NCBI RefSeq assembly: GCF_900163635.1
Contig: NZ_FUID01000033.1
Coordinates: 1-64,000, forward strand
Reading direction: 5' to 3'
Length of the DNA: 64,000 nt
DNA from: Leucobacter sp. 7(1)
Lineage (GTDB): Bacteria; Actinomycetota; Actinomycetes; Actinomycetales; Microbacteriaceae
Below are positions 36,196 to 50,362 of this stretch, in pieces; position 1 is the first letter of the stretch, and each line of letters opens with the position of its first letter. Position numbers and translations under genes: made by a program. Below the pieces are notes generated by a model. That model searched no databases. It worked only from the letters and a program-made list of their open reading frames with translations, and had not been told where the DNA came from.

Positions 36196-37179
36196 CTACA
36201 GTCCAAGCTCTTTGGCGGTGGTGTCTTTCAATACCTGGGCTGGTCGCACGTACTTCGCCAGCGTCTCAAGACGCACGTGTCGAGTCGTTCGAGCGATGCG
36301 AGCTGCATCCACGCCATGCTCTGCAACTGTCGTGGCATGACCTGCGCGTAGCGAGTGCCCGGAGATCGGCAGGCTGCCAAGGCCAGCCAGCTGGGCGCGG
36401 GACTTCACGATCTGGTCAATCGACTCTCCAGTCAGACCCTTGATCGTCAGGGGCACCGTATTGTGCCTGGTGACCCGTCCGAAGATCGGACCGCTGTCAA
36501 CACCCAGTAGCTCCAGCCAGGCGTCGAGCGCGGTGACGGGGCAGGTCTCTTTGTGCTCACCCCACGTCACGCCGACCTGCTGGCCTGCCTTGAGCTGGTC
36601 GCCCTTCGACTGCCTGATGGTGATCACCAGACCATCGCGCATGCGACCGATGTCCTCGACCTGGAGTGCTGCCAGCTCAGATCGACGTAGAGCTCCCGCG
36701 TAGCCAATGAGCAACACCGCCTTGTCGCGCATGCCTCGGACGCCGTCATCGTTGCAAGCATCCACCAGGCGACGCATCTCGGCCAAGGTCAAAGCGTGTG
36801 CCTGCTTGGACGACGCCACGCCCAGCCTGCGAGTCAAGCCTGCGCGCACCCGGCGCACGCCAGCGGCCGACGTTGGATCATCGAGGCCGGCGTCCTCGTG
36901 GTACGCCCGTATCGCCGCGGCTGCGCCATTGACCGTCGACAGCGACGCGCCCTCGGCCATCTCACTCAGGTAGGCGGCAACATTCTCAGGGCTGGCAGGC
37001 AGTGCGCTGCGCTGGGTGATGCTGCACCACTTGACCCAGCCCTTCCACTTGCTTGCATAGGCACGTCGGGTAGCCGGCGATCGCGACTCAGCCAACGCCG
37101 CAACGACCCGTTCGACTTCCTCCTCGGTCAAAGGGGAGTTGACGAGCTCGGTGCCCGTCGCTTCAAGTTCATTTGTCAT
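36196..37179 (-). CDS. Tyrosine recombinase (XerC/D-like integrase)
   Basis: The 327-residue protein has an N-terminal SAM-like core-binding domain (SRSPATRRAYASKWKGWVKWC) and a catalytic domain with the first Arg in GALRRSELAAL, the HxxR pair in HSLRAGH, the second His/Trp-position His in TRHVRLETL, and the nucleophile Tyr in AKYVRP. All catalytic residues are present. It is internal to an element that already has a serine integrase, so it may resolve multimers, be a relic of another element, or act on an internal cassette. The mRNA is probably leaderless: TAGAAT (37191-37186) lies 6 bases before the ATG. Confidence 0.9.
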   Translation of the reverse strand: MTNELEATGTELVNSPLTEEEVERVVAALAESRSPATRRAYASKWKGWVKWCSITQRSALPASPENVAAYLSEMAEGASLSTVNGAAAAIRAYHEDAGLDDPTSAAGVRRVRAGLTRRLGVASSKQAHALTLAEMRRLVDACNDDGVRGMRDKAVLLIGYAGALRRSELAALQVEDIGRMRDGLVITIRQSKGDQLKAGQQVGVTWGEHKETCPVTALDAWLELLGVDSGPIFGRVTRHNTVPLTIKGLTGESIDQIVKSRAQLAGLGSLPISGHSLRAGHATTVAEHGVDAARIARTTRHVRLETLAKYVRPAQVLKDTTAKELGL

Positions 37180-37248: not shown

Positions 37249-37333
37249 TATGATGGAACTACGCCGAAGCGCTCTCGCGACCGCTTATCAGACACCCCCA
37301 AGTGTCCGGCGCTTCGATCTGCCCGGGCGCACC
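37249..37333 (+). promoter_or_regulatory. Promoter-leader module, copy A
   Basis: -10 TATGAT (37249-37254), a 9-nt gap, the box CCGAAGCGCTCT..CGACCGCTT (37264-37286), then a hairpin: GTGTCCGG (37302-37309) with CCGGGCGCAC (37323-37332) across a 13-nt loop. GACAC at 37291 can pair instead with GTGTC at 37302, a mutually exclusive alternative. Two more copies occur at 42203-42308 and 48103-48186 on the other strand. Confidence 0.7.
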
Positions 37334-37350
37334 CAGCTCGGAAGTGGATC

Positions 37351-37401
37351 ATGAAGCAATACTCGACGTTCCCTGCAAGCCTCAGTCACGGTGACCTGTA
37401 A
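37351..37401 (+). CDS. 16-residue leader peptide ORF coupled to the repeat-nuclease gene
   Basis: ATG 37351, preceded by GGAAG, reads MKQYSTFPASLSHGDL and stops at TAA 37399-37401, overlapping the next ATG as TAATG. This arrangement suggests that ribosomes reinitiate on the main gene. It lies directly after the leader hairpin. Confidence 0.45.
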   Translation: MKQYSTFPASLSHGDL

Positions 37402-39131
37402 TGGCACGGCGGCAGACCACCGAAGAATGGATCGCCAAGGCTCGTGCCGTGCACGGCGACCTCTACGACTACTCACAGAGCGTGTACGACAAGGCCACGT
37501 CGAAGATCACGATCATCTGCGAACTGCACGGACCATGGCGTCCGATTGCTCGCGACCACACCAATAGTTCGGCGGGATGCCCTGAGTGCGGAGGTGTCCG
37601 TCGTTTGTCCCGAGAAGACTGGATCTATCGTGCTCGCCAGATCCACGGCGATAAGTTCGACTACTCAAAGGTCAACTACACGACGCTCACCGCTGAAGTG
37701 GCGATCATCTGTCCTGCTCATGGTGAGTTCCTTCAACAGGCCGAGGTGCATCTGCGCGGCTTTGGCTGCTCGCAATGCAGTGGTCGCCGCAGGGGGACCA
37801 CCGAAGAATGGATCGCCAAGGCTCGTGCCGTGCACGGCGACCTCTACGACTACTCAAAGGCGGTCTATGTCAACGCCAATACGAGCCTGATCATCATCTG
37901 CCCGAAGCATGGCGAGTTCCAGAAGCAGCCCCGGAAGCACCTTGATCGAGCGTCTGGCTGCACACGGTGCAGCGGCCGCTTCAGCCCGACCACTGAGGAG
38001 TGGATCGCTCAAGCGGTTGCTAAGTTCGGCGGTCGCTTTGACTACTCAGAAGTCACCTACCGTGGAGCCGACGCAAGGATCACCATCCTTTGCCCGAGCC
38101 ATGGCTCGTTCAGCTCTACGCCCTATCGGCATCTGCTCAGTCGCCACGGGTGTCCTGAATGCGCCAACGCTATGGCCGGGGATGCTAGGCGGCTAGGGCT
38201 TGACGGCTTCATCGAGCGGGCTCGCCTCGTCCACGGTTTCAAGTACGACTACGCGCAAGTCGACTACAAGAGCACCGAAGGTGCAGTAACCATCGTCTGC
38301 CCTGGCCACGGGCCGTTCTCACAAAGCGCCGGCAACCATCTCAACGGTGCTGGCTGTCCTCGATGCGCTGGCCGCTACAACTGGACAACCGAGGAGTGGG
38401 TCGCGCTCGTCGATAAGGTCCACGGCGGCCGATTCGACTATTCCTTGGTCGAGTACGTGAACTCCGCGACGAAAGTAACCATCATCTGCCCTGAGCATGG
38501 CCAGTTCACCCAAATTGCCAAAGACCATCGCCGAGGCATCGGGTGCGCCCGCTGCAGCGGCTACATCCCGCCGACAACAGCCGAATGGGTCGACATGACC
38601 AAGGGCGTCCACGGCGAGCGGTACGACTACAGCCAGACTGAGTACGTCAACCAGAACACGCAGGTGACAATCGTCTGCCGCAATCATGGCCCTTTCTCGA
38701 TGAGCCCCCGGGGCCACGTTGAGGACGGTAGCGGATGCCCCTCCTGCCCCCGGAACAAGTCTCGCGGCGAAGAGCTGGTCGCCCAGGCGCTGAACCAGCT
38801 TGGTGTCGCATACGTGCGGGAGTGGAAGCACTCAACGCTCGGAGGCCGTGGTAAAGGTCGAATGCGCTTCGATTTCCTGCTGCCTGCATTCAACGCCTTG
38901 GTCGAGTTCGATGGTCGGCAGCACCGTGAACCAGTCCGCTGGACGAAGCAGGTCTCCGTCAAGCAGTCCAAGGTCATGTTCATCAGGGTCCAGCACAACG
39001 ACCGGCTGAAGAGCAGATGGGCCGCGGAGCACGGCTATGAACTCCTGCGGCTGTCGAACTTGCGCACAGTGGACGACGAGATCAAGCAGTTCATCCAAGC
39101 GCTGTCAGCCATGCCCAGCGACGCCGTGTAG
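37401..39131 (+). CDS. Seven tandem zinc-motif repeats fused to a Vsr-like endonuclease domain
   Basis: The 576 residues contain seven repeats of about 62-68 residues, each following TTEEWI.KA..VHG..YDYS..Y.....ITIICP.HG.F....HL...GC.RC.G. Each holds a CxxH and a CxxC, enough for one treble-clef-like zinc site. The C-terminal 130 residues (GEELVAQALNQLGVAYVREW..., MRFDFLLPAFNALVEFDGRQHREP, VMFIRVQHND) fit the Vsr/EDxHD nuclease fold of phage homing endonucleases such as I-Bth0305I. Most likely it is a sequence-specific DNA nuclease with a long modular DNA-binding array. It is driven by leader module copy A and followed by a terminator. Its target is unknown. Confidence 0.72.
   Translation: MARRQTTEEWIAKARAVHGDLYDYSQSVYDKATSKITIICELHGPWRPIARDHTNSSAGCPECGGVRRLSREDWIYRARQIHGDKFDYSKVNYTTLTAEVAIICPAHGEFLQQAEVHLRGFGCSQCSGRRRGTTEEWIAKARAVHGDLYDYSKAVYVNANTSLIIICPKHGEFQKQPRKHLDRASGCTRCSGRFSPTTEEWIAQAVAKFGGRFDYSEVTYRGADARITILCPSHGSFSSTPYRHLLSRHGCPECANAMAGDARRLGLDGFIERARLVHGFKYDYAQVDYKSTEGAVTIVCPGHGPFSQSAGNHLNGAGCPRCAGRYNWTTEEWVALVDKVHGGRFDYSLVEYVNSATKVTIICPEHGQFTQIAKDHRRGIGCARCSGYIPPTTAEWVDMTKGVHGERYDYSQTEYVNQNTQVTIVCRNHGPFSMSPRGHVEDGSGCPSCPRNKSRGEELVAQALNQLGVAYVREWKHSTLGGRGKGRMRFDFLLPAFNALVEFDGRQHREPVRWTKQVSVKQSKVMFIRVQHNDRLKSRWAAEHGYELLRLSNLRTVDDEIKQFIQALSAMPSDAV
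37415..37475 (+). repeat. 61-bp exact repeat, copy 1, in repeat unit 1
   Basis: Identical over 61 bases to 37796-37856, the corresponding part of repeat unit 3, while the other five units differ clearly at DNA level. This indicates a recent duplication or gene conversion within the array. Confidence 0.9.
37796..37856 (+). repeat. 61-bp exact repeat, copy 2, in repeat unit 3
   Basis: Second copy of the segment at 37415-37475; the identity ends where units 1 and 3 diverge in the YSQSVYDK versus YSKAVYVN region. Confidence 0.9.
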
Positions 39132-39152
39132 CTATCACCGACATACGAAAAG

Positions 39153-39187
39153 ACCCCCGAAGCATCGCCGCTTCGGGGGTTTTGCTC
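39153..39187 (+). terminator. Rho-independent terminator after the repeat-nuclease gene
   Basis: Stem ACCCCCGAAGC / GCTTCGGGGGT with loop ATCGCC and a following TTTTGCTCTT tract. Confidence 0.8.
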
Positions 39188-39252
39188 TTCCTATTTCCTT
39201 GTGTCCTGTTCTTCCCCGCCGGCATCGTCGGAGGCGGGCTGGCCGTGGTGGG

Positions 39253-39552
39253 CTACGCGGCCAGCAGGGCGTCGAGCCGCACTTCGACGAGCATCCCGCC
39301 GAAGTGCGCGTAGTACTCGTGGCCGTCGTCGGTGATGCAAGGCTGGCTGGTCTTCACATACGAGCTCTGATCGTCGGGGACAAGGTCGAAGCCGAGTTCT
39401 TCAGTGTCGCCGAGGGCCAGCCGTGCGAGATGTCCGGTAGCAAGGTGATCGAACCCCTCGCGGTCGATGCCCTGTCCAGCGAAGAAGGCGTCTGCGTCGA
39501 TCTCGGTGCCGGTGATGCCTGAGGCGGTAATGGTGGTGATCATGTTGGGCAC
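39253..39552 (-). CDS. Hypothetical protein
   Basis: 99 residues from ATG 39552 (or 96 from ATG 39543), beginning MPNMITTITASGITGTEID and ending MLVEVRLDALLAA. Acidic, probably soluble, with no family I recognise. It is transcribed toward the terminator of the repeat-nuclease gene. Confidence 0.55.
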   Translation of the reverse strand: MPNMITTITASGITGTEIDADAFFAGQGIDREGFDHLATGHLARLALGDTEELGFDLVPDDQSSYVKTSQPCITDDGHEYYAHFGGMLVEVRLDALLAA

Positions 39553-39651
39553 TCCTGTGTTGAGTTGGTTTCGCGGCCGGCCGGGTGGCAGCGCGCTGGT
39601 GAAGGGCCCCGTTGCGGTGGGGTGTTCCTTTCCCCTTCAACCCATCCCCCG

Positions 39652-39849
39652 GCCGGGCTACTGCCCGGCTGAAAGTGCTCCAAAAGGGTGAAGAAGAGGG
39701 CACAGCCCTCTCGGGAGACAACTTGGAGCACTCCACCTCCATCAGCGGGGCCCGAGCTGTCGATGTGAACGTTGCGGTGACCGTCGGCTGCAATGCTCGC
39801 CCCGCAAGAGACCCCCGTAGCGTTATCGCTACGGGGGTCTTCTTTTTCT
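39652..39849 (+). ncRNA. Candidate structured RNA ending in a terminator
   Basis: No convincing gene lies here, but the plus strand shows three nested or serial stems: GCCGGGC/GCCCGGC (39652-39669), a perfect 10-bp closing stem AGTGCTCCAA/TTGGAGCACT (39674-39683 with 39723-39732) enclosing AGAGGGC/GCCCTCT (39695-39711), then a terminator (stem GACCCCCGTAGCG, 39810-39839, followed by TTCTTTTTC). This layout fits a small RNA of about 200-250 nt or a long leader. A 26-codon ORF (GTG 39689) inside is possible but weak. Confidence 0.35.
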
Positions 39850-39866
39850 TCGCCGGTCTACTGCTC

Positions 39867-40019
39867 CTACCCGTCGCTCTCGACGATGATCGGCTCCAGG
39901 AACGACTCGATGACGTGCTGTACCACTGGCTCGACCGCCTCGTGCTTCTCCGTCTCAGTGCAAGCTGTCAAACCGACCAGCACCGCCCCCAGCAGCATCG
40001 CTGCCATCAACCTCTTCAT
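39867..40019 (-). CDS. Small lipoprotein
   Basis: I use ATG 40019 rather than the longer frame because the signal starts there: MKRLMAAMLLGAVLVGLTAC, with Cys20 as the lipidated residue. The mature peptide is only 30 residues, acidic (TETEKHEAVEPVVQHVIESFLEPIIVESDG). Such tiny lipoproteins beside transfer genes may act in entry exclusion or lysis, but this one is unassigned. Confidence 0.6.
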   Translation of the reverse strand: MKRLMAAMLLGAVLVGLTACTETEKHEAVEPVVQHVIESFLEPIIVESDG

Positions 40020-40087
40020 GTCCGCTCCCTGATGCGACAAAGGCCCCGGCTTCCACCGAGGCCCTCGTGCGTTGTGCTGTGTCGTGC

Positions 40088-40729
40088 TTAGAGGATGAAT
40101 TCTGCAATGGACTGACCAGCGTCCAAGCACATCGAGCTGAAGGCGTTCTGCTGGGCCTCGAGATCACTGGTGGCCATCTCGTCGCCGGTGACGTACATGG
40201 TTTCCAGGAACTGATCAGAGACGGCCACAGGGCCGGTCTGCAGATCCGAGTCGCCTGGCCACTGGATCTCCTTCTTCTGCTCGTTGACGCTCCATGGCTT
40301 CAGCATCCCGGTGGCCCGCGAGCCCTCGTCCTCGCCGAGGCACGTGTACCGCGAGTAGTGCAGGGTGTCGCCGTCGACAACGAACTTGCTCAAGTACGGG
40401 CTGAAGGACTGGACCGCCTCCAGGTAGACCGTGCCTTTCACCTCGTCGCTGCCCAGGTCGATTGTGGTGCCGGCCTCCTGCGACGGAGCCGCCGACTCGG
40501 TCTCAGCTGGTGCCGAAGACTCGACCTCGCTGCCCGGCGTCTGCCAGCCCTGCTCTGCGTCCTGCGACGGCTGGGCCGGAGCTGGCGCGGCAGGTTGGGT
40601 CTGCGCCTGCTGTTCGTGAACCTGCTTCTGGTACTCGGCGGCAACCTCGTCGCTTCCGGGGTAACTGCAGCCGGTCATCGAGATCACGGCCAGTGCTGCC
40701 AGCGGCAGTGCAATCAGATGCTTCTTCAT
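40088..40729 (-). CDS. Lipoprotein with a Pro/Ala/Gln-rich linker
   Basis: The start at 40729 gives MKKHLIALPLAALAVISMTGC, a lipobox with Cys21. A low-complexity stretch of about 60 residues (QTQPAAPAPAQPSQDAE...) precedes a C-terminal domain (DEVKGTVYLEAVQSFSPYLSKFVVDGDTLHYSRYTCLG) of unknown fold. The start lies 2 bases from the stop of the membrane gene upstream, so it belongs to the 42176-40088 operon. A surface-exposed part of a transfer or exclusion apparatus is possible. Confidence 0.65.
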   Translation of the reverse strand: MKKHLIALPLAALAVISMTGCSYPGSDEVAAEYQKQVHEQQAQTQPAAPAPAQPSQDAEQGWQTPGSEVESSAPAETESAAPSQEAGTTIDLGSDEVKGTVYLEAVQSFSPYLSKFVVDGDTLHYSRYTCLGEDEGSRATGMLKPWSVNEQKKEIQWPGDSDLQTGPVAVSDQFLETMYVTGDEMATSDLEAQQNAFSSMCLDAGQSIAEFIL

Positions 40730-40731
40730 GA

Positions 40732-41256
40732 TCACGCACGACCCTTCTTGGCGTTGAGCTTGCGCAGCCACGCGAAGATCTCGTTCTGCGCGACGATGGC
40801 TCCACCGATCAGCAGGCCAACGCCGATAGCCATCCACATGTTGCTCAGCAGTCCGAACAGAAAACCCATGGCCGCACGCAGGATCAAGAATCCAACGGTG
40901 TACGCGGCCGCGAACAGGATCAGCTTGAACGCTGAGCTATTAGCGATCGACGTCTGGATCTCGTCGTAGATCCGACGCAGCGTGCTCTTGGTGAACTCGA
41001 GGTCGTCCTGCTCGCTTGTCCGCTCGGGCATGCGCAGGATGCCTGCCTTGAACATGTAGCCGATCAACGTCACCAGGAACACCGTCATGCCGGTGGCCAC
41101 GTTCTCGGCGAACGGACCCAGCGACAGCTGGTAGCCGATGGCCATTAGTCCGCCGGTCACCAGGAGCGTCACCAGGATGCTCCATCCACGTCCGCCCTCG
41201 ATGCGGATCACGTTTTCGATGCGAGTCTGCTTCGACTCGTTCGTGTCGCTAGACAT
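40732..41256 (-). CDS. Hypothetical membrane protein
   Basis: 174 residues with two helices near 28-70 (SILVTLLVTGGLMAIGYQ, GMTVFLVTLIGYMFKAG) and two near 110-160 (FKLILFAAAYTVGFLILRAAMGFLFGLL, MAIGVGLLIGGAIVAQ), joined by a charged cytoplasmic loop. Overlaps the gene upstream by 8 bases. No family is recognised; the context suggests a mating or membrane-complex part. Confidence 0.6.
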   Translation of the reverse strand: MSSDTNESKQTRIENVIRIEGGRGWSILVTLLVTGGLMAIGYQLSLGPFAENVATGMTVFLVTLIGYMFKAGILRMPERTSEQDDLEFTKSTLRRIYDEIQTSIANSSAFKLILFAAAYTVGFLILRAAMGFLFGLLSNMWMAIGVGLLIGGAIVAQNEIFAWLRKLNAKKGRA

Positions 41257-42031
41257 TGTTCTTGTTCCCCTCGTCTTCGCTGGCCTTGTTCAGGCCGGAA
41301 ATGATCTTGATTCCCGGATCGCCGGCGTCGGCTGATCCCTTGTCTTCGTTCTTCGGCGCATCCGGATTGCTGATGATCTTGATCGCCTTGTCGGCGGTAC
41401 CCCCGGCGCGGGTCTTGTGTCCACTGCGTACCGATGGGGCCGCCCAGCCCCAGGCGTAAGCGCGCCATCCTGCGGCGGCAAACCCGAGCACGATCTGGAT
41501 CTCGATCCAGCTGACCCACCCTGCGGCGTACCAGCCCGAGAGCACCCGAGGTGCGATCCAGCCGCCGGTGCTGACCTCAAGCCAGCTGGCCAGCGCGTTG
41601 ATCAGCCAGAGGTCGCCTCCGGCTGGCCGGCCGACCATGAACAGGACTGCGACGGCGGCAGCGGCTGCGAAGTACGGCCACACCATGACGCGGTGCTTGT
41701 CGGCGACCGTCTCCCAGGCCTTGTAGAACACCCAGCTCAGTGCCCAGGTGATCCCGAACCAGAACAGCTTCAACCCGACAAACATGACGTAGGCGATGGC
41801 TCCCAGCGCCGAGGTCTTGGCATCTTCGCTGCGTTCGGTCCACAGGAGGAACGTGCTCTTGAGCTTCGCCTCGTGCAGTGCCGAGTCGCCCAGGCCCATG
41901 CTGGTGCGCTCCAGCTTGCGGGCACGTCGTGCCAGCAGCTCTGCGCGCTGGGTGGCCGAGTGCTTGTCGAGCCACTGCCGGCCCTGGATCCACGCGGCTC
42001 GCTCGGACTCGAACTTCGTTGCGTCAGCCAT
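41249..42031 (-). CDS. Hypothetical multi-spanning membrane protein
   Basis: ATG 42031 (MADATKFESERAAW) overlaps the stop of the small gene before it (ATGGCTGA). The 260 residues have a basic N-terminal helical part, then hydrophobic segments around 75-105, 120-140, 150-165 and 175-200, and a soluble tail with a repeated IKIIS motif (AIKIISNPDA, GIKIISGLNK). Unassigned; likely part of the element's membrane module. Confidence 0.6.
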   Translation of the reverse strand: MADATKFESERAAWIQGRQWLDKHSATQRAELLARRARKLERTSMGLGDSALHEAKLKSTFLLWTERSEDAKTSALGAIAYVMFVGLKLFWFGITWALSWVFYKAWETVADKHRVMVWPYFAAAAAVAVLFMVGRPAGGDLWLINALASWLEVSTGGWIAPRVLSGWYAAGWVSWIEIQIVLGFAAAGWRAYAWGWAAPSVRSGHKTRAGGTADKAIKIISNPDAPKNEDKGSADAGDPGIKIISGLNKASEDEGNKNNV

Positions 42032-42176
42032 GGGCAACCACGCCCAGCGGTGCGTCAGCCAGCGCAACGGCTGAAACATTCAACGGGGTGACGGTGCTGC
42101 CGACGATGAACCCGGCGAAGAACACGAAGCCCAGGACGAACAGGACGACGATAGTTCCGAAGATCATCTTCCACAT
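42024..42176 (-). CDS. 50-residue single-pass membrane protein
   Basis: The frame reads MWKMIFGTIVVLFVLGFVFF followed by AGFIVGSTVTPLNVS and ends HG-stop inside the next start (ATGGCTGA). AAAGGGAAATCAG precedes its ATG. It is the first gene after leader module copy B and is easily missed because of its size. Confidence 0.6.
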   Translation of the reverse strand: MWKMIFGTIVVLFVLGFVFFAGFIVGSTVTPLNVSAVALADAPLGVVAHG

Positions 42177-42202
42177 CTGATTTCCCTTTCCGAAAGTGCG
42201 GC

Positions 42203-42308
42203 GGCATCCGGAAACAAGAAAATCCCGGACACCAAGTAGGGCCTCTGAGGGCCGAAGTTGATGTACTGCAAGCGGTCGATTAGAGCGCTTCGGGATGCCT
42301 CAACGATA
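42203..42308 (-). promoter_or_regulatory. Promoter-leader module, copy B
   Basis: On the minus strand: -10 TATCGT (42308-42303), 9-nt gap, the box (42293-42270), then after a 36-nt insert a hairpin GGTGTCCGG (42233-42225) with CCGGATGCC (42211-42203) and a 13-nt loop. Compared with copy C (CCGGGCACC) the second arm differs at paired positions but still pairs using G-U. The insert has its own GGCC/GGCC stem. Confidence 0.7.
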
Positions 42309-42310
42309 GC

Positions 42311-42340
42311 ATAAGATCGTAGACTTTGCTACAATCTTAT
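42311..42340. promoter_or_regulatory. 30-bp palindromic operator between divergent promoters
   Basis: ATAAGATCGTAG and CTACAATCTTAT flank ACTTTG; the arms match in 11 of 12 positions. The plus-strand -10 (TACAAT, 42330-42335) lies inside it and the minus-strand promoter abuts it. The adjacent RHH-like protein is the natural binder. Confidence 0.7.
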
Positions 42341-42372
42341 TAACTGGTCGCCCAAAGAAAGGAGTCGACGCA

Positions 42373-42669
42373 ATGGTCAATTTGGACGCACGATTGACAG
42401 TCCCAATGACTACACGCGACAAGGCCCGCCTTCGACGCAAGGCGGCCGATTTGGGTGTCAGTCCAGGGGTGCTTGCACGTGCATTCATCCTGAGAGGTCT
42501 GAAGTCTTTAAATGACCCACAACTTGTCGCACAGATCGAGGCTGAGGCTGAGGCTGCGACTGAACGAGCATCCGCCGCCGGCAAAGCAGCCATGAAGGCG
42601 CGTTGGAGCAAAGAGCAGGCTAGAAACAAACGAGGTGACCCAGGCAATGGGAATGTTCGACAAGATTAA
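42373..42669 (+). CDS. Ribbon-helix-helix-like regulator or relaxosome protein
   Basis: 98 residues: a short strand (VNLDARLTVPMT) then two helices (TRDKARLRRKAADLGVSPGVLARAFILRGLKSL), the plan of RHH/MobC-N proteins, and a Glu/Ala-rich helical tail ending in basic residues. AAAGGAG precedes the start. It overlaps the coupling-protein gene by about 23 bases. It probably represses its own operon and the opposite one via the palindrome upstream. Confidence 0.65.
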   Translation: MVNLDARLTVPMTTRDKARLRRKAADLGVSPGVLARAFILRGLKSLNDPQLVAQIEAEAEAATERASAAGKAAMKARWSKEQARNKRGDPGNGNVRQD

Positions 42670-44080
42670 GGAAACGGCGACGAGCGTCGCCGAGAAGGTT
42701 GTTGCGGAGCCGCAGAAGGCTTGGGTGAGTGACGAGCGCACGCCCTACCTCGGCTTCGAAATGGATGAGAACGGCAACGTCCTCGGGAAGGCCAAAGGCG
42801 GCGTCCACGCGCTGATGCTGGCAGGTTCGGGCACCGGCAAGTCCCGCACGGTGCTCGCACCAGCAATCATCCTGTGGAAAGAGGGGGTGGTCTTTGCTGT
42901 CTCGGCCAAGGGCGACCTTGCAGAGCTCACCGCGGCCCACCGTAACGGTGGACCTTGCTACCTCATGGATCTGACTGGCCAGGTGGATCCAAGCGAGATT
43001 CCTGCCGACGTGACCCACGTTGTGAGCGACCCCTGCGCACTGCTCGTGCCCGATGCGACCGGCTCCACTGACGACTCGGCCTACGACATCGCAACCCTGC
43101 TGGTGCAGGTTGGCGCGGCAGGCCTGTCCGGAGGCAAGGATTCCAGCGGCGACTCCGCGTTCTGGGCCACGCTCTCGCTCGGCGTGCTGGCCTGCCTCCT
43201 GCAGGCCGGGGCAGGCTACCCCGACCCCGAGACGGGCGAATGGGTCGATGGCGGCGGGATCAACTGGGTTCTGGCAGCATCACGGAACTCCAGCAGCCGG
43301 GACAGCGACGAGGACGGCACCGACCTGTTCGACCTGGATACGCCCAGCTGGGACACCGCTGCCCTGCGTGCGGGTCTGGTCGACTCCATCCATGCCGACG
43401 ACGTCGAAGCCACCAAGAACCTGGACCCCAAGCAGGTCGACAGTGTCAAGATCAACCTGAAGGTCGCGACCTCGGCATGGACCAAGCGCGCGATCCGCGG
43501 AACTGGCGACTCGGTGCCCTTCACCCCGGACATGCTCGAGCAGAACAACGCCACCTTCTACATGGTCTCGCCCTCGAATGGTGCAGGCGCTTCGGCAGCT
43601 GTCTCCGTCATCGATTCCGTCGTGAACCACTGGGTGCTCAACGCCGCCCGGAAGATGCCCAAGATGCTGATGGTGCTCGACGAGATGCCGGTCATCGCGC
43701 CATGGAAGCGTCTTCGCGAGGCTGTTGGCCTGCTGCGCTCCTACGGGCTGACGTTCCTGGTCGCAGCCCAGCACTCCACCCAGTTCACTGCCCGGTTCGG
43801 CAAGGAAGAGGCTGACGCACTGTTGGCCATCTTCCCCTCGATCCTCGTTGGAGTAGGTGCCATCGAGGAGGATCTGCTCAAGCGGGCCGCCTGGACGATC
43901 CCGGCCACTGAACGCCGGACCGAGTCCAAGGACTCAGCCGCGCGAAACAACTCGTCCAAGGACAGGGCAGAGACTGCCCAGGCAGCAGAGCTGCTGCCGC
44001 GCCACACGGGTGAAGGCCAGCTGCTGATCCGGGGCATGCCAGGGCCGAGGGTCAAGCTGGTGGATCTCAAGTACATGTAG
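42647..44080 (+). CDS. VirD4/TraG-like type IV coupling protein
   Basis: I use ATG 42647 (the GTG at 42635 is in frame). The 477 residues carry Walker A LAGSGTGKSRT near 60-68, VVFAVSAKGDLAELTA as the strand after it, Walker B LMVLDEMP near 345, and FLVAAQHSTQF, the sensor-like Gln motif of TraG/TraD proteins. No N-terminal membrane helices are present, unlike VirD4, but as in TcpA-like or soluble TraG forms; the small membrane proteins nearby may tether it. It would deliver the relaxase-DNA complex to a channel. A terminator follows. Confidence 0.82.
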   Translation: MGMFDKIKETATSVAEKVVAEPQKAWVSDERTPYLGFEMDENGNVLGKAKGGVHALMLAGSGTGKSRTVLAPAIILWKEGVVFAVSAKGDLAELTAAHRNGGPCYLMDLTGQVDPSEIPADVTHVVSDPCALLVPDATGSTDDSAYDIATLLVQVGAAGLSGGKDSSGDSAFWATLSLGVLACLLQAGAGYPDPETGEWVDGGGINWVLAASRNSSSRDSDEDGTDLFDLDTPSWDTAALRAGLVDSIHADDVEATKNLDPKQVDSVKINLKVATSAWTKRAIRGTGDSVPFTPDMLEQNNATFYMVSPSNGAGASAAVSVIDSVVNHWVLNAARKMPKMLMVLDEMPVIAPWKRLREAVGLLRSYGLTFLVAAQHSTQFTARFGKEEADALLAIFPSILVGVGAIEEDLLKRAAWTIPATERRTESKDSAARNNSSKDRAETAQAAELLPRHTGEGQLLIRGMPGPRVKLVDLKYM

Positions 44081-44103
44081 CCAGATCTAGCCCAGGACAG
44101 GCG

Positions 44104-44137
44104 AAGACCCCGGTGGAATCTCCACCGGGGTCTTGTT
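44104..44137 (+). terminator. Terminator after the coupling-protein gene
   Basis: Stem AAGACCCCGGTGGA / TCCACCGGGGTCTT with loop ATC, then GTTCTG. It also faces the convergent minus-strand gene ending at 44151. Confidence 0.8.
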
Positions 44138-44150
44138 CTGCCTGCCGCAC

Positions 44151-44399
44151 CTACCTCCGACGCCTTTCCACGTCGATCGCCTTCTCGAAGCCGTTGCTCG
44201 TCATGACGTAGACGTTCGGATCACGCCGGGGCAGCGGCTGCCGCTGCAGTGCCCTTGCCTTCAGCCGGGCCATCTTCGGACAGTTCTCGGCATGCTCGTA
44301 AGTCCCATCGCCGTCCCGGCTGGACTCGCCGCACTCATTGCACAGGCTGAATCCGCCGAGGCCGAGGATGGCATCTCCATCCCTGCTCAAGAAGGCCAT
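44151..44399 (-). CDS. Small cysteine-motif protein
   Basis: 82 residues with FSLCNECGESSRDGDGTYEHAENCPKMARL, a CxxC ... H/C arrangement able to bind zinc, and a basic C-terminus (FEKAIDVERRRR). It is the last gene of the relaxase operon, 3 bases after the previous stop. No known family. Confidence 0.6.
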   Translation of the reverse strand: MAFLSRDGDAILGLGGFSLCNECGESSRDGDGTYEHAENCPKMARLKARALQRQPLPRRDPNVYVMTSNGFEKAIDVERRRR

Positions 44400-44401
44400 G
44401 G

Positions 44402-44761
44402 CTACATCCCCATGCCCTGCGACTGGGACTGGCTCTGCTGGCGCTCCTTGATGCGCTGGTTCTGCTGAGCCTGCTGCTCCTTCATCGCGGCGATCTTCTG
44501 CTGGGCGGCGGTGCGCTGCAGATCCTGCCCCTTCTGGCCAGCGGACTGGCCCTTCTGGCCCTGCTGCTTCTCCTGGGCCTTTTCTGCCGCCTTCTGCTGC
44601 TGCTTGCGGGCGTACTCCATGCGCTTCTGGCGGTCCTGGGCTGCCTTCTTGAACTCGGGGGACTGCTCGTCGAACCGCTGCTTGGCCTTGCCGGTGCCGT
44701 CCTGCGACATCGAGGTCTTGATCTTCTGCAGTTCCCGCTCGTCCATCTTCACTTCAGCCAT
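44402..44761 (-). CDS. Gln/Lys-rich helical protein sharing the relaxase C-terminal tail
   Basis: 119 residues, almost entirely charged and glutamine-rich helix (RKQQQKAAEKAQEKQQGQKG). Its end, QNQRIKERQQSQSQSQGMGM, closely matches the end of the adjacent MOBF relaxase, QNKRIREREQSQSQSYGMGL, and KIAAMKEQQA also matches KIKAMRARQA. A shared tail in two adjacent transfer proteins suggests a common docking or translocation signal. Confidence 0.6.
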   Translation of the reverse strand: MAEVKMDERELQKIKTSMSQDGTGKAKQRFDEQSPEFKKAAQDRQKRMEYARKQQQKAAEKAQEKQQGQKGQSAGQKGQDLQRTAAQQKIAAMKEQQAQQNQRIKERQQSQSQSQGMGM

Positions 44762-44786
44762 GACTGGCTCCTTTCATCGGTTTCTT

Positions 44787-47700
44787 CTACAACCCCATGC
44801 CGTATGACTGGGACTGGCTCTGTTCGCGCTCCCTGATGCGCTTGTTCTGTGCGGCCTGCCGTGCACGCATGGCCTTGATCTTTTCCATGGCCGGCGTCAT
44901 CGGCTTGGCCGGTGCCGTCTCGGTGGCCGGCGTTGCCGGTGCCGCGGTGGAAGCCTGCTTGTGCGACTTGTCCTCGGCAGCCCGCTGGCGGCTGAGCACG
45001 TCCTTCTCGATCAGCTCGTGCTGGGCCGATGGCTTCATCGACGTGAGGTCGACCTGGTAGCCGCCTTGGCTGTCCTGCGCGATCGAGCCGCGCACAGCCA
45101 GGACGTGCTTGCCCTCGACCACCGTGGAGTTGCCGCCCGTGGCATCGAGCTGCAGGCCGATCTCCTCTAGCGTGGAGTCCTCGAACTCGTGCTTCGTGGC
45201 ACCGGAGGCGATGGTCAGATCGTCGTACTCGGCGGCGCTCAGGCGCTGCCCGGTCTTCTCGGCCTGCAGACGCAGGCTCTTCTGGCCCTGGGCCGCGTCG
45301 TCATAGGCCGCCAGCTGGAAGTCGACGTCCACGCTGCCATCGGCAAACTGCTCGCGGACCACGGCAATCAGTTCAGGCTGCTCCATGTCCTGGCCGGTCA
45401 GATCCCGCACTACGCGTGTCCGTGGCTCGACCACCTGCGGCTGCTGTGGCTGGCTCAGCTCTGCATCCAAGTCCAAGCCGTCCATCTCGCGCAGGCTCTG
45501 CGACAGCGCGTCGTCCAACCCGAGATCGGCACCTTCGCGGGTCATGGCTGAAGCGAACTGCTCGCGGACCTCGTCCCGGTCTGCGGCTACAGCGTGCAAG
45601 ACGTTGGCCGTGCGTCCGCGGGTCAATCCGACATACGCGCCAGCAGCGCCCATCTCGTCGCTCAGGACAGTGTGGGCGGTATCAACCGTCATGCCCTGGC
45701 TGCCGTGCGCCGTCACGCAGTAGGCCAGCTGTACGTTCTCAGCGACGTACTGCGCGTTCAGCTCCTGGTAGCGGCCCTGATCGTCGATCACCGTGATCCG
45801 GCCATCGTCGGTGACATGGTCAACGGTGAAGCTCTGGCGGTTGGCAACCTGCAGCTCGCGATCGTTCTTGCGAGTTGCTACGCGAGCACCAGCAGCGATT
45901 GAATCGCCGTCCATGCCCTCGACGACGCGGGAGCTGTCGATGACACCAGCTGCGCTCAGACGATCGAACACTGCCTGGTTCACGCGCTGGGCGGTGGCGT
46001 TGGTCGCGGTGATCGCCAGCGACTTCTCGCCGGCCATGCTCTCCAGAGCCACAGTCTCTGCCACGCGGTCGATGACCTCGTCGGAGGTGCCGATCTGGAC
46101 CTGGCCCCGCTCCTCGAGCAGGTGGTAGAACTCGTCCACGTTCCCGCGCTGGCGCAGCTCGACGCTCGCATCGGCGTACTGGGTATCCAGCTGGCCCTCC
46201 GGGGTACGGAAGCGGCGGACGTCGGTCAGATCAGCGTAGGAGGTCGACAGCTTGGCGGCCTGCGCCATGTAGCCGCCTCGACCCACCGCAGCCAGCTGCT
46301 TCGTGTCGCCGGTCAGCACCAAAGTGCCCAGCTTTGCGTCATCGACGTACTGGTGCAGCACCCGGGCGGTCTCCTGGTCGAGCATGCCTGCTTCATCGAC
46401 CACGAGCACGGTGTTCGCATCGAGCTTGGTCGCCTCAGGCTGTGCCTTCCACACCTGGGGAAGCACCCACTTGCCAGTCTCCTCGTCGATGGAAGCTCCG
46501 GCGCGATAGAGCAGCGCGTGGACCGAGTTGCCCTCGGCACCGATTGCCGCGCCGGCTTCCAGCGCACCGCGCTTGGTAGGCGAGACCACGACCATCCGGC
46601 GACCGTCAGCCTGCAGCTGCTCGTTGGCGGCTTCAAGCATCGAAGTCTTGCCAGCGCCGGCCGCACCTTCGACGACGACCAGGCTGTGTGAACCGGTGAT
46701 GGCCTGCGCGGCCTTGATCTGCTCCTCGGAAAGGTTGTAGGCACCGCGGTCTGCATTGACTTCGCCGTCCTGGCCGCCGCGCTGTGCGCGTGCGTCCAGC
46801 CGGGACTCCAGTTGCTCGTGGGTGGCCAGTACAGCGTGCGACGTGAAATGGCGGTTGCCCTCCACAACGAGCCCGTCGTCGTAGAACGAGTGCTGCTGGA
46901 CCATGGCTGCTTCGGCAGCGGCGGTGCGCAGCTCTTCAAGGCCGTCGTCGCCCAGTAGGTAGGTCTGCGCGATGCGGCGGTCGATGGCCGCCTTCATGTC
47001 GGCGGTGGACCAGGCCGAATGCTGCTGGGCGAGGTCATCCAGCGCGGTCATCGCAATGATCTCGGGGTCGATCTGATCGGCACGCTGGCCAGCCAGGATC
47101 TGGTCGAGGTTGGTGCCTTCGACACTCTCCAAGCCGCGTCCGAGTTCTTCCACGTCGAACGAGGCGTCCTGGCCCTTCACGGACTTCTGGGGACGCTGCT
47201 GCGCCCAGCCCAGCTGATCCCACGCACGAAGCTGCTTCGGTCCTGGCTCCTGCCCGGGGTGCTCTGCACGCCACTGGGCTTCCTGGGACTCGCGGTTTGC
47301 TTCGATCTGATCGCGTCGTGTCGAGAAGCTGTCGACCAAAGGCTCGAACTCGGCGATCTTGCCACCGCCTTCGCCTGGAATCCACGTGTAGCCGGCCTGG
47401 GCAATGGCCTGGCGAAGCTCCATGTCGGTGGACATCGACAGATCAGCGGCAGCGTGCACGCGACCGGAAAGGCGGTACAGGGTCTTGCCGTCGATGGCAC
47501 GCCATTTGCCCTCGGCCAGGCCCTTCGGCACGAGCTGCACGTGGCGGTGGAAGTGGGGGTCGCCGGCTCGGGAAGTCTTGTGCTGGACGGAGGTGATCTC
47601 CATCTGCTCCAGCTTCACCTGGTACTGCCCGCCCTTGGGGCCTACGCGGGTTACTGCGTGCTCCTTCAACGCCACAGCGCCGGCGACGGCGGCGCGGGCC

Positions 47701-48080
47701 TGGGCGGCTTCCAGCGCCTCGGCAATGCGGGGGTCGGCTGCTGCAGCAAGGGAGAGCGACTTCGACGAGGAGATCAGGGTCTCCTGGAAGAGGGGAGTGC
47801 CGCCCATCTTCAGCGCACCGTCCTCGCCCACGTACATGCGCTGGCGGAAGGTGCCGCGCTGCTGGCCGGTCTCCGGGTCGCGGTGCTCCATCCACGCCTT
47901 GAACTCCTCGGAGCTGAGGGTGCCTTGCTCGATGCCGCCGTCCGACAGGACGACGTGCTGGATCGAGCGGTCCTCGCCTTCGGAGTAGTACTCGTCAAGA
48001 CGTGCAGAGGTGGTTTCGAGCAGGTAGGCAGAGGCCGTCGCGGAAGATCCGCGGAATGCCTTGAAGCCGCCCTTGCTCAT
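44787..48080 (-). CDS. traA: MOBF family relaxase-helicase (TraA/TrwC-like)
   Basis: ATG 48080 (MSKGGFKAFRGSSATAS) is chosen because the leader hairpin lies upstream. The 1,097 residues start with the relaxase domain: Tyr31-Tyr32 as the nicking pair and the metal-binding histidines in HKTSRAGDPHFHRHVQL (about 167-180). A RecD-like helicase follows, with Walker A GAAGAGKTSM near 480 and Walker B VLVVDEAGM. The C-terminus ends QSQSQSYGMGL, shared with the next gene. It would nick oriT, bind the 5' end and unwind the strand for transfer. Expression is under leader module copy C. Confidence 0.9.
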   Translation of the reverse strand: MSKGGFKAFRGSSATASAYLLETTSARLDEYYSEGEDRSIQHVVLSDGGIEQGTLSSEEFKAWMEHRDPETGQQRGTFRQRMYVGEDGALKMGGTPLFQETLISSSKSLSLAAAADPRIAEALEAAQARAAVAGAVALKEHAVTRVGPKGGQYQVKLEQMEITSVQHKTSRAGDPHFHRHVQLVPKGLAEGKWRAIDGKTLYRLSGRVHAAADLSMSTDMELRQAIAQAGYTWIPGEGGGKIAEFEPLVDSFSTRRDQIEANRESQEAQWRAEHPGQEPGPKQLRAWDQLGWAQQRPQKSVKGQDASFDVEELGRGLESVEGTNLDQILAGQRADQIDPEIIAMTALDDLAQQHSAWSTADMKAAIDRRIAQTYLLGDDGLEELRTAAAEAAMVQQHSFYDDGLVVEGNRHFTSHAVLATHEQLESRLDARAQRGGQDGEVNADRGAYNLSEEQIKAAQAITGSHSLVVVEGAAGAGKTSMLEAANEQLQADGRRMVVVSPTKRGALEAGAAIGAEGNSVHALLYRAGASIDEETGKWVLPQVWKAQPEATKLDANTVLVVDEAGMLDQETARVLHQYVDDAKLGTLVLTGDTKQLAAVGRGGYMAQAAKLSTSYADLTDVRRFRTPEGQLDTQYADASVELRQRGNVDEFYHLLEERGQVQIGTSDEVIDRVAETVALESMAGEKSLAITATNATAQRVNQAVFDRLSAAGVIDSSRVVEGMDGDSIAAGARVATRKNDRELQVANRQSFTVDHVTDDGRITVIDDQGRYQELNAQYVAENVQLAYCVTAHGSQGMTVDTAHTVLSDEMGAAGAYVGLTRGRTANVLHAVAADRDEVREQFASAMTREGADLGLDDALSQSLREMDGLDLDAELSQPQQPQVVEPRTRVVRDLTGQDMEQPELIAVVREQFADGSVDVDFQLAAYDDAAQGQKSLRLQAEKTGQRLSAAEYDDLTIASGATKHEFEDSTLEEIGLQLDATGGNSTVVEGKHVLAVRGSIAQDSQGGYQVDLTSMKPSAQHELIEKDVLSRQRAAEDKSHKQASTAAPATPATETAPAKPMTPAMEKIKAMRARQAAQNKRIREREQSQSQSYGMGL

Positions 48081-48102
48081 GTCCGTCACCCGCTTGCTAG
48101 GC

Positions 48103-48186
48103 GGTGCCCGGACATAAAAAACGCCCGGACACCTAGTGGTATCTAACAAGCGGTCGATTAGAGCGCTTCGGGGTGCTTCAAGTGTA
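48103..48186 (-). promoter_or_regulatory. Promoter-leader module, copy C
   Basis: On the minus strand: -10 TACACT (48186-48181), 9-nt gap, the box (48171-48148), then a 9-bp hairpin GGTGTCCGG (48133-48125) with CCGGGCACC (48111-48103), one G-U pair, 13-nt loop containing a T6 run. GATACC just before can pair with GGTGTC instead, giving an alternative fold as in copy A. The relaxase ATG is 22 bases after the hairpin. Confidence 0.7.
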
Positions 48187-48451: not shown

Positions 48452-50362
48452 CTACAACGTCGCCGTGTGCTGGTCGTCAGCCCCACGCCCCTCGATCAAC
48501 GCTGCGCGCTCGGCTATGTGGGCCTTGAGATATGCCGAGCGATCCTCGTCGCTGATGTCGTAGCGCCCGGCCTCCAGCTGGCGCTTCATCCACGCACGAC
48601 GCAGGTTCGACAGCGCCAGAGCTCGGTCGTTGTCCGCAGCCTGAGCATCAGCACCTCGCTCGAACTCCTGAGCCATCTCTTCCTTCAGCGTGGTGCGCAA
48701 CCACATCTGCTCGCTGACTGATGGATCCAGCTTGCTGCCGAACTCCTCCATCCACGCGCGGCCGACACCATCTGGCACCTTAGCTTCGTCGAACGGCTGA
48801 CCCTCGGCCAATGCCTGCCAGGCGTGAGCCTCTTCGAACTCAGCCATGGCCACAATGATCTTCTGCTTGCGTCCGCTGTGCGAGTCGAAGTCAACCGACC
48901 ACAGCAGCGACTGGCGGTCCTCGATGAGGCCAGCATCTTCGATCTGTGGCTCTGCTAGCTCTTCGGCGTCCTGCACAGCCTCTGTCGCCTCTACGGCCGG
49001 CAGAGCCTGCACAGCGGGCTCAGGAGCAGTAGCCGGCGCTACCGGTTCCTTGGCAGGCTCCACTGGCTCAGGCTTCGCTGCCGCCCGTTTGGTGCGTTGC
49101 TTGGGCACGGGGGTTTCCTCCGCCACCTGAGCCTCGAAAGCCTCCATCTCAGCAGCCTGCGTTGCTCCTTCGGTCGCCGTGGCCTTCGGTTCTGGACCTA
49201 ATGAGGGGATGAATGCGGCGTCCCTGGTGCGCATGTCGACCATGAGCTGATTGATCGGGCCGTCTACCGTACTGAAGCCGGCAGGATTATCGGCGCGATT
49301 AGCCATCATGGTCTCGTACGCAGCCTGCCCGCGAGCGTCGGCAGACTGCATCAGGTCGTCGAATGCGGCCTGGCGGCGTCCTGCGCCAGCCATCATGGCT
49401 TCATACCGCTCTTCGGGGGTCGACTCCGCTGGCCCTGCGCTCTTTGCTGCCTCGTCATTGGCCGCAAGCTGCGCCAAGATCACCTCGCGCCCGTAGAGCG
49501 CAACAGGCAAGCGCGTGGAACCAGCACGAGCACTGCGTACCTTGCCATTCTCGTCAGTGTGCTTGAACGTCCAGGAAGTCCCGTCCTTGCCGCGCTTGGT
49601 CAGCGCCACGGTGCCGTCCTCTTCCACCAGCTGGATGAACCGCTCTTCGTCGAGCGCCTGCGCCTTGGCGGCGTCGATCTGCGCCATCAGGCTCGGCAGC
49701 CACTGGGCGTTACGACCGCTGCGACTTACCCGCATCAGCTCCTTGTTGTCGTAGGCGTGCTTGCTCTTGAAGCCCTTGAACCTCTTGCCGTTGCGCTTGG
49801 CCTCGTCGGCCAGCGCAACGGCCAATCGGGAATTGTCGTAGCCGATCGACGCCATGAACTCTTCGTCGGCCAGCACCTCATTGGTGATGGCGCGGATGCG
49901 GTACACGTTCGACATCGCCGAGGAGAACGGCTTGCCGGCAACGACGGCTTCGGAGACCTTCTCGCCCTTGGCGGTATGCGTCATCTCGGCATCCTCGTGC
50001 GCCAAGTTCGGCACGACGCCGTGGCTATGAACCAGTCCGCTTGACCCGTCACTCTGGGTGCCGACCAAATTCATTCGACCTCCGAAGGCTCGGCGCACCA
50101 CCTCAGCGACGACCTGGTGGTGCTGGTAGACCTCTTCGGGGTTGTTCGGATCGAACTCGGCGGTCGACGCGCTGAGCACCAGGCCGAACGCCTCGACCTT
50201 CAACTTGCCCTGCGGATCGAACATGTCGCGTACGTCGCGGAAGTCATCCTGAGCCGTTGTCGCGGTGCACCCGTAGCCGGTGGCGAACTCGCAGCGGTCA
50301 TCCTTCAGGATGTACGCCAGCAGTCGGTCAGCGTTCGTGGTGCTCTGGATTCCAGTGAACAT
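48452..50362 (-). CDS. Second relaxase, MOBP/MobA-like
   Basis: 636 residues. The N-terminus (LLAYILKDDRCEF...) resembles the relaxase motif with a catalytic-type Tyr, and GLVHSHGVVPNLAHEDAEMTHT resembles the HxH metal motif III of MobA/VirD2-type proteins (usual form HNHivvN). After about 350 the protein becomes low-complexity (Pro/Ala/Glu) and then a helical C-terminal domain. It overlaps no gene, but its start is 6 bases from the stop of the MobC-like partner, the classic mobC-mobA order. It gives the element a relaxase distinct from the MOBF one. Confidence 0.7.
   Translation of the reverse strand: MFTGIQSTTNADRLLAYILKDDRCEFATGYGCTATTAQDDFRDVRDMFDPQGKLKVEAFGLVLSASTAEFDPNNPEEVYQHHQVVAEVVRRAFGGRMNLVGTQSDGSSGLVHSHGVVPNLAHEDAEMTHTAKGEKVSEAVVAGKPFSSAMSNVYRIRAITNEVLADEEFMASIGYDNSRLAVALADEAKRNGKRFKGFKSKHAYDNKELMRVSRSGRNAQWLPSLMAQIDAAKAQALDEERFIQLVEEDGTVALTKRGKDGTSWTFKHTDENGKVRSARAGSTRLPVALYGREVILAQLAANDEAAKSAGPAESTPEERYEAMMAGAGRRQAAFDDLMQSADARGQAAYETMMANRADNPAGFSTVDGPINQLMVDMRTRDAAFIPSLGPEPKATATEGATQAAEMEAFEAQVAEETPVPKQRTKRAAAKPEPVEPAKEPVAPATAPEPAVQALPAVEATEAVQDAEELAEPQIEDAGLIEDRQSLLWSVDFDSHSGRKQKIIVAMAEFEEAHAWQALAEGQPFDEAKVPDGVGRAWMEEFGSKLDPSVSEQMWLRTTLKEEMAQEFERGADAQAADNDRALALSNLRRAWMKRQLEAGRYDISDEDRSAYLKAHIAERAALIEGRGADDQHTATL

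Follow-up and report, generated by a model that had tools for sequence, protein, structure and literature searches.

The window analysed here, a stretch of 64,000 nucleotides from contig NZ_FUID01000033.1 of Leucobacter sp. 7(1), carries a mobile element with a tyrosine integrase, a MOBF relaxase, a type IV coupling protein, and a DUF5906 protein. One 5' leader occurs in this element in three copies, which precede a nuclease gene (copy A), a membrane operon (copy B), and the relaxase gene (copy C) (Table 1). It is a genuine, structured leader that Rfam does not contain, and the computations give good evidence that its folds compete. As modeled below, the three leaders may well be copies of one cis-acting strand-exchange RNA that controls translation via the ribosome-binding site, a proposal in which our confidence is evenly balanced. 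A previous sequence-only reading of the window had suggested one switch for transfer genes. That suggestion is partly borne out, in that the three operons share a leader with mutually exclusive stems, which recurs in a related element and has undergone compensatory changes; the switching itself is proposed on the basis of computed folds.

All three copies lie where the sequence-only reading had placed them, at 37249-37333 on the forward strand and at 42203-42308 and 48103-48186 on the reverse strand. The -10 hexamer that it described 9 nt upstream of a conserved block is likewise present, and the distance from the end of the hexamer to CCGAAGCGCTC is exactly 9 nt in all three copies. The seventh base after the -10 hexamer is an A in five copies (A, B, C, and copies G5B and G5C of the related element) and is taken as the predicted transcription start (+1). 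The core pattern of the leader was scanned over the window with a 3-nt gap and up to three mismatches, and 100 shuffles served as the control; two matches were found, both exact (B and C), where 0.00 were expected. When a gap of 2 to 4 nt is allowed, A, B, and C all match exactly and no other exact match occurs in the 3.9-Mb genome, and when three mismatches are allowed, one further match appears in the genome, on another contig. Outside A, B, and C, the exact core pattern was not found among 100 genomes, including that of the window.

When the RNA between the predicted +1 and the end of helix P1 is folded by itself, the minimum free energy structure of A, B, C, G5B, and G5C is in each case the same three-way junction of helices P1, P2, and P3. 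Slightly longer pieces starting some nucleotides upstream of +1 give the junction again, with z-scores of -1.7 to -3.0, and the centroid structure of the longer G5C piece deviates from it. P1 pairs the 5' end of the RNA with the CGG that ends GGUGUCCGG. In B, G5C, and (with one mismatch) G5B it starts flush with +1; the start is shifted to +2 in A and to +3 in C. P2 consists of AAGCGCUC and GACCGCUU with a C-C mismatch; its stem sequence is identical in the five copies. With few independent copies to judge from, the mismatch is invariant in these five and is C-U in a sixth copy, G5A, while the loops vary among copies. P3 takes the form GAYAYC/GGUGUC in C and G5B; A has a shorter and G5C a bulged version, and the B version, ACAUCAA/UUGGUGU, contains an inserted hairpin. 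Among the five copies, two pairs of P1 are changed on both sides, P2 is invariant, and P3 has one-sided changes only; 92.6% of the cells are paired, compared with at most 43% once the partners are slid. The best-conserved unit is this 5' domain with P2, not the downstream hairpin by itself.

That downstream hairpin (P5), on which the sequence-only reading had centered, takes the strand GGUGUCCGG shared by P3 and P1 and competes with the junction. An alternative upstream stem had been noticed for two copies; it exists, and forms in all three. The arms of P5 do vary and still pair in A, B, and C, but the bulge drawn for copy A is unnecessary: GUGUCCGG pairs with CCGGGCGC over 8 bp, including two G-U pairs, and this unbulged register is approximately 5 kcal/mol better (-31.2 versus -26.3 kcal/mol bulged). 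The 13-nt loop is present in A, B, and C but has 12 nt in G5B and G5C, and its sequence is not conserved. The loop and 3' arm of P5 can in turn pair with the Shine-Dalgarno (SD) sequence or the start codon (P6), and the 3' strand of P2 can pair with the SD region (P4). Strands are shared between P3/P1 and P5, between P5 and P6, and between P2 and P4, and on paper each of the six copies offers some way of pairing with the ribosome-binding region. The computed folds are mutually exclusive and one of them hides the ribosome-binding site, as expected of a leader that sequesters this site, although not every helix is found in each copy.

The helices were compared with shuffled sequences, and the resulting p values are optimistic and serve as guides, not probabilities, because the copies are related and the helices were chosen after inspection: for P5, 0.007 (A), 0.003 (B), 0.001 (C), 0.02 (G5B), and 0.03 (G5C), combined 3e-7; for P6, 0.002, 0.019, 0.10, 0.001, and 0.12 in the same order, combined 6e-6, or 4e-5 when the arm is shuffled instead; and for P4, 0.07, 0.78, 0.001, 0.03, and 0.02, combined 1.4e-4. 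For A, B, and C only, the combined values are 4e-6 (P5), 4e-4 (P6), and 0.003 (P4). Paired changes, for which the strands were set by hand, are more telling than these values. In P6, AUGUCCG/CGGACAU of C corresponds to AUAUCCG/CGGAUAU of G5C, a compensatory change from G-C to A-U, and paired changes also occur between B and G5B; in P4, a U-G pair of C corresponds to an A-U pair of G5C. Overall, compensatory changes are seen in P1, P2 (three pairs, all in G5A), P4, and P6.

The related element lies in a second genome of the same genus (G005), where the relaxase is 70% and the coupling protein 74% identical; synteny extends over approximately 16 kb plus the nuclease gene. It has two clear leaders, G5C upstream of the relaxase and G5B upstream of the membrane operon. 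The G005 nuclease gene is the second gene after that of a serine resolvase (named by eye), and a candidate leader, G5A, was found just upstream of the resolvase in a model search with filters off. Its score (8.6 bits, E = 2.7) would mean nothing alone. G5A begins with ACCCCGAAG after a TAAAAT box, and its P2 has the architecture of G5B and G5C, with 5 bp, one 1x1 mismatch, 2 bp, and a 3-nt loop, which is kept in register in 312 of 200000 shuffles of its sequence. On structure and place, G5A is counted as a sixth, diverged copy, so that all three operons have a leader in both elements. With six copies, P2 has two-sided changes at three pairs, and all 42 of its 42 cells are paired, a result that one of 500 shuffles reaches in a comparison that is not blind because the model search that found G5A used the P2 structure. 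G5A offers ready-made natural compensatory changes. When P2 strands are swapped, the pairing of the G5A start region reaches -8.4 kcal/mol with the P2 strand of G5A itself and -2.6 to -3.7 kcal/mol with those of the other copies. Within each element the copies resemble each other closely. B and C agree at 27 of the first 28 nt after +1, and G5B and G5C agree over the first 31 nt apart from one gap; the P2 loop of B equals that of C and the loop of G5B equals that of G5C, while equivalent copies in the two elements differ. This pattern points to exchange among the copies of an element or to a factor that reads all copies of its element.

The computed energies of the junction and the P5 fold are -41.3 and -31.2 kcal/mol in A (unbulged P5), -40.7 and -41.1 in B, -41.9 and -49.1 in C, -28.7 and -35.8 in G5B, and -34.9 and -36.9 in G5C. 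In minimum-energy folds of growing transcripts, P2 appears first and then the junction, at approximately 49 to 57 nt (73 to 77 nt in B); P5 comes next in B, C, G5B, and G5C, followed by a fold that hides the start region. The full leaders are better folded than shuffled sequences in C (z = -4.3), G5B (-3.9), and G5C (-2.5), and not clearly better in A (-0.95) and B (-1.4). In constrained folding, the mean unpaired value of the SD sequence is 0.11 to 0.44 with the junction and 0.49 to 0.85 with P2 and P5 (0.52 in A, unbulged).

In the proposed mechanism, the nascent 5' end would fold first into the three-way junction of P1, the P2 hairpin with its 1x1 mismatch, and P3. While the junction stands, GGUGUCCGG would be locked in P3 and P1 and P5 would be blocked, such that the 3' arm and loop of P5 would pair with the SD sequence or the start codon in P6; opening of the junction would allow P5 to form and remove the arm from P6. 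A second lever would be the 3' strand of P2, which, once freed from P2, would pair with the SD region; in C, G5B, G5C, and perhaps A and G5A, the resulting P4 may lock the site a second time. Ribosome access is probably what changes; the junction with P6 would presumably be the off state and P5 with intact P2 the on state. We infer that a factor acting on the leader exists, most likely an element-encoded protein. Because the site is computed to be most open with P2 and P5, a factor recognizing P2 would set translation jointly for all three (relaxase, membrane operon, and nuclease). A fuller version, which we put forward only tentatively, is that of one RNA switch copied to the transfer operons of an actinobacterial integrative element and jointly setting the synthesis of the relaxase, the membrane channel, and the nuclease, with two coupled strand exchanges (P5/P6 and P2/P4), P2 read by the element-encoded factor, and element-specific loops; the P2 loops would then differ between the elements because the factor of each element has its own specificity.

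Several results weigh against a strand-exchange switch. The evidence base consists of six copies in two elements, of which the orthologous copies are not independent, and the shuffle p values are optimistic as explained above. Covariation of the whole junction over five copies is reached by 50 of 500 shuffles and is not beyond chance; that of P2 rests entirely on G5A, from which P1 and P5 are missing. The swap comparison is one-sided, since the G5A strand pairs with the start region of C at -8.6 kcal/mol, compared with -8.4 for its own. P4 is absent in B (p = 0.78) and weak in A (0.07) and G5A (0.135), and P6 alone is not significant in C (0.10) and G5C (0.12). The energies disagree on the default state: the junction is favored by approximately 10 kcal/mol in A and the rival fold by approximately 7 kcal/mol in C and G5B, and B and G5C are near even. 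In the growing transcript of copy A, another fold is preferred at 57 nt and P5 is never the minimum. When P5 is forced and P2 left free, the SD sequence is unpaired at 0.08 to 0.52, often as hidden as with the junction, and the state with both P2 and P5 is the minimum in B only.

The alternative stems had been likened to attenuators in the sequence-only reading, and a transcription attenuator, in which the junction and a U-rich stretch would be an intrinsic terminator and P5 the antiterminator, seems unlikely but deserves consideration. P5 and the junction are indeed mutually exclusive, and the junction is followed by GCGUUUUUU in C and GAUUUUCUUGUUU in B; however, there is no U-run at this place in A or G5B, and G5C has just UUUCU. 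A GC-rich stem followed by a U-run is thus not found in all copies, the U-run being present in B and C and partial in G5C, and because no U-tract terminator is conserved, the transcriptional sense fits only B and C. A terminator scan, whose stem rule is blind to a junction, lists a 5-bp stem in B and nothing at leaders A and C. The P5 hairpin was also considered as a general terminator and rejected, since it has no conserved U-run.

We give a small chance to processive antitermination as carried out by put or conAn RNA, in which the hairpins would bind the elongating polymerase and make it ignore terminators. Several operons of the mobile element begin with the same RNA, in a compact fold of approximately 50 to 75 nt with a P2 stem identical in five copies, and its position is reminiscent of putL, just after an early promoter (PMC9378689), and of conAn, at the start of conjugation operons (PMC8955417). 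On the other hand, the operons served look short (about 2 to 4 open reading frames [ORFs]), the terminator scan lists no U-tailed terminator inside them, and the pairing with the translation start would be left without a reason. Moreover, put is made of two stem-loops, not a junction; two adjacent stem-loops within approximately 70 nt are not what the leader forms, as five of six copies have the junction and G5A alone folds to two hairpins, at 58 nt.

It is improbable that the leader is simply a 5' stabilizer, in which the 5' end closed in P1 would shield the mRNA from decay without any switching. The predicted +1 is also the first base of P1 in B, G5B, and G5C, but the first nucleotide of A and the first two of C are unpaired, G5A is without P1, and P5, P6, and P4 with their compensatory changes would be unaccounted for. 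Least probable of all is a DNA operator, in which the conserved 24 bp after +1 would bind a repressor common to the three promoters and the RNA folds would be incidental. In its favor, the P2 block forms an inverted repeat, if an imperfect one, from about +7 to about +27. Against it, the half-site spacers measure 3, 4, and 5 bp, a variation that a dimer would tolerate poorly; inverted repeats of another kind (read by eye) lie upstream of the membrane operon and of the relaxase operon, one to each; and P1 and P6 covary outside the block.

The distribution of the leader is narrow. In searches with a covariance model of the leader, in which the large runs scored at most 13 candidates per genome and the taxon samples overlap, five matches above 60 bits were obtained, in 2 of 54 genomes of the genus; the same two genomes only were found among 398 genomes of the family, and only the window's own genome among 396 genomes of the order and 396 of the phylum. 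The sequence-only reading had proposed a wide covariance search over actinobacterial plasmids and integrative elements; in these genome samples the search revealed no copies beyond the two elements, so a spread over actinobacteria is not seen. Distant members could exist unseen because the model misses copies as diverged as G5A. Matches of 16.5 to 34.5 bits in other genomes were set aside, those inspected (L184, L185, L156, L157, L210, L186, and L188) being partial matches or, in a six-frame reading, apparent coding sequence, as were matches of 22.3 and 19.0 bits elsewhere in the window's own genome. The 27.1-bit match in L156 (1501-1596), at the edge of a protein kinase-like gene, carries an insert between GACACC and GGTGTCCGG. 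Rfam 15 has no match in the window and a single one, below its cut-off (E = 4.4), in five leader loci of about 3 kb (those of A, B, C, G5B, and G5C), in agreement with the sequence-only reading, to which no described motif of this kind was known; no such leader is mentioned in the titles and abstract openings searched, a scope that excludes subscription papers. Exact-pattern scans gave 104 matches in all, on 94 genome-contig and 9 viral-contig stretches; these were taken as chance from their contexts, judged by eye, and from the 120 nt downstream, where GGTGTC occurs in 3 of 104 and GTGTCCGG in none of the 104. An exact viral scan with a narrower gap gave no match. A blastn search of copy C and its surroundings against plasmids returned 35 records at E <=10, none covering 80% of the query.

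The relaxase has matches in 86 of 199 family genomes; after that of G005 (70%), the best-scoring are 36 to 40% identical, with short pieces up to 51%, and three phage records match at 25 to 34% identity. At E 1e-20, the coupling protein has matches in 2 of 396 family genomes; 50 plasmid records match it as well, and the 15 listed among these are 32 to 35% identical and belong to mycobacterial genera. Scans limited in reach to close relatives confirmed no relative of either protein in viral contigs and none of the relaxase in genome contigs. The window's genome encodes two more MOBF relaxases, at G000:C3:25220-27817 (37% identical) and G000:C105:4711-7542 (36%), and the core pattern is exact only at the three window copies. 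Just before the starts of other MOBF relaxases in the family (L022, L023, L027, L030, and L031), an almost perfect hairpin, CACCTCC(C/T)TCATGAG-ACGA-CTC(A/G)TGAGG(G)AGG, was seen by eye over the SD sequence; it is unrelated in sequence to the window leader and reflects the same idea of a hidden relaxase start.

Table 1. Coordinates of the leader copies and neighboring features in the window.
Feature	Position	Strand	Details
-10 hexamer, copy A	37249..37254	+	TATGAT; predicted +1 = A37261
-10 hexamer, copy B	42303..42308	-	TATCGT, TG one base upstream; predicted +1 = A42296
-10 hexamer, copy C	48181..48186	-	TACACT; predicted +1 = A48174
Leader A	37261..37350	+	P1 37262-37266/37307-37311; P2 37267-37286; P3 37291-37295/37302-37306; P5 37302-37309/37323-37330; P6 37311-37357; P4 37281-37286/37342-37347
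Leader B	42177..42296	-	P1 42296-42291/42227-42222; P2 42290-42270; P3 42264-42258/42235-42229 + inserted hairpin; P5 42233-42225/42211-42203; P6 42214-42207/42194-42187
Leader C	48081..48174	-	P1 48172-48169/48127-48124; P2 48168-48148; P3 48143-48138/48133-48128; P5 48133-48125/48111-48103; P6 48115-48109/48085-48079; P4 48153-48143/48100-48090 over SD AAGCGGGTGA
16-aa ORF	37351..37401	+	right after leader A; TAA overlaps ATG of next gene (TAATG)
Repeat protein	37401..39131	+	DUF723/DUF4379 (treble-clef) matches
Membrane operon (inferred from ORF order)	40088..42176	-	50-aa membrane ORF 42024-42176; 41249-42079; 40732-41256; lipoprotein-like 40088-40837
MOBF (TrwC-type) relaxase	44787..48080	-	start MSKGGF at ATG 48080
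Type IV coupling protein	42635..44080	+	divergent from membrane operon; 74% identical in G005
Tyrosine integrase of element	36196-37179		

The genes served were correctly named in the sequence-only reading as the nuclease, the membrane operon, and the relaxase, except that copy A meets a 16-aa ORF first. Its stop codon overlaps the start of the repeat protein, the C-terminus of which may be nuclease-like, and this overlap suggests translational coupling of the two. In G005, the serine resolvase gene takes the place of the 16-aa ORF, and its end likewise overlaps the next start in TAATGG. For the relaxase, ATG 48080 is the most likely start, rather than the TTG upstream of it. Inverted repeats were observed near two of the promoters, AAGATTGTAG-CAAAGT-CTACGATCTT upstream of 42308 (membrane operon) and CTACCGGTGGTAG upstream of 48186 (relaxase); the latter is perhaps an origin of transfer (oriT), and similar sequences to both are present in G005. 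A 636-aa protein (48452-50362) shows weak similarity of the MobA/VirD2 type, at an E of 0.0037 that falls short of the Pfam cut-off, and is perhaps a second relaxase-like protein; it had no match among plasmids. A XamI-type restriction endonuclease gene (34085-35047) lies beside the element.

To our knowledge, conjugation control in actinobacterial integrative elements has been little studied, and the RNA-based cases of conjugation control known to us consist either of a single leader or of an antisense RNA. The copying of one leader to every transfer operon would, if true, amount to an RNA regulon inside one mobile element. In FinP/traJ of F-like plasmids, the ribosome-binding site of a transfer gene is likewise hidden at the RNA level, but FinP is an antisense RNA that acts in trans, whereas the longest exact complements to the leader starts, outside the leader sites themselves, measure 11 nt in the window, at three places, and 12 nt in the G005 stretch, at one place. 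HK022 put is, like the leader, a nascent RNA of a mobile element; it measures approximately 70 nt and occurs twice per genome, with putL directly behind its promoter and putR approximately 270 nt downstream of its start (PMC9378689). It differs in that two polymerase-binding stem-loops suppress terminators, through the beta' zinc-binding domain of RNA polymerase, whereas the leader forms a three-way junction and pairs with the translation start. The conAn RNA of pLS20-type conjugative plasmids also stands at the start of conjugation operons (PMC8955417); it needs a protein (ConAn1) in addition and acts on a long operon with more than 20 terminators. The leader, by comparison, serves short-looking operons and has no conserved terminator. 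Translational riboswitches and other leaders that sequester the ribosome-binding site are built from an aptamer, an antisequestor, and a sequestor. In the leader, similarly, one strand is common to the 5' folded domain and to an antisequestor, the opposite arm of which can pair with the ribosome-binding site. The leader differs from these riboswitches in its variable loops, the lack of an Rfam match, its three copies per mobile element, and its two strand exchanges (P5/P6 and P2/P4). It appears to be a new leader motif that uses a known logic, the hiding of the ribosome-binding site.

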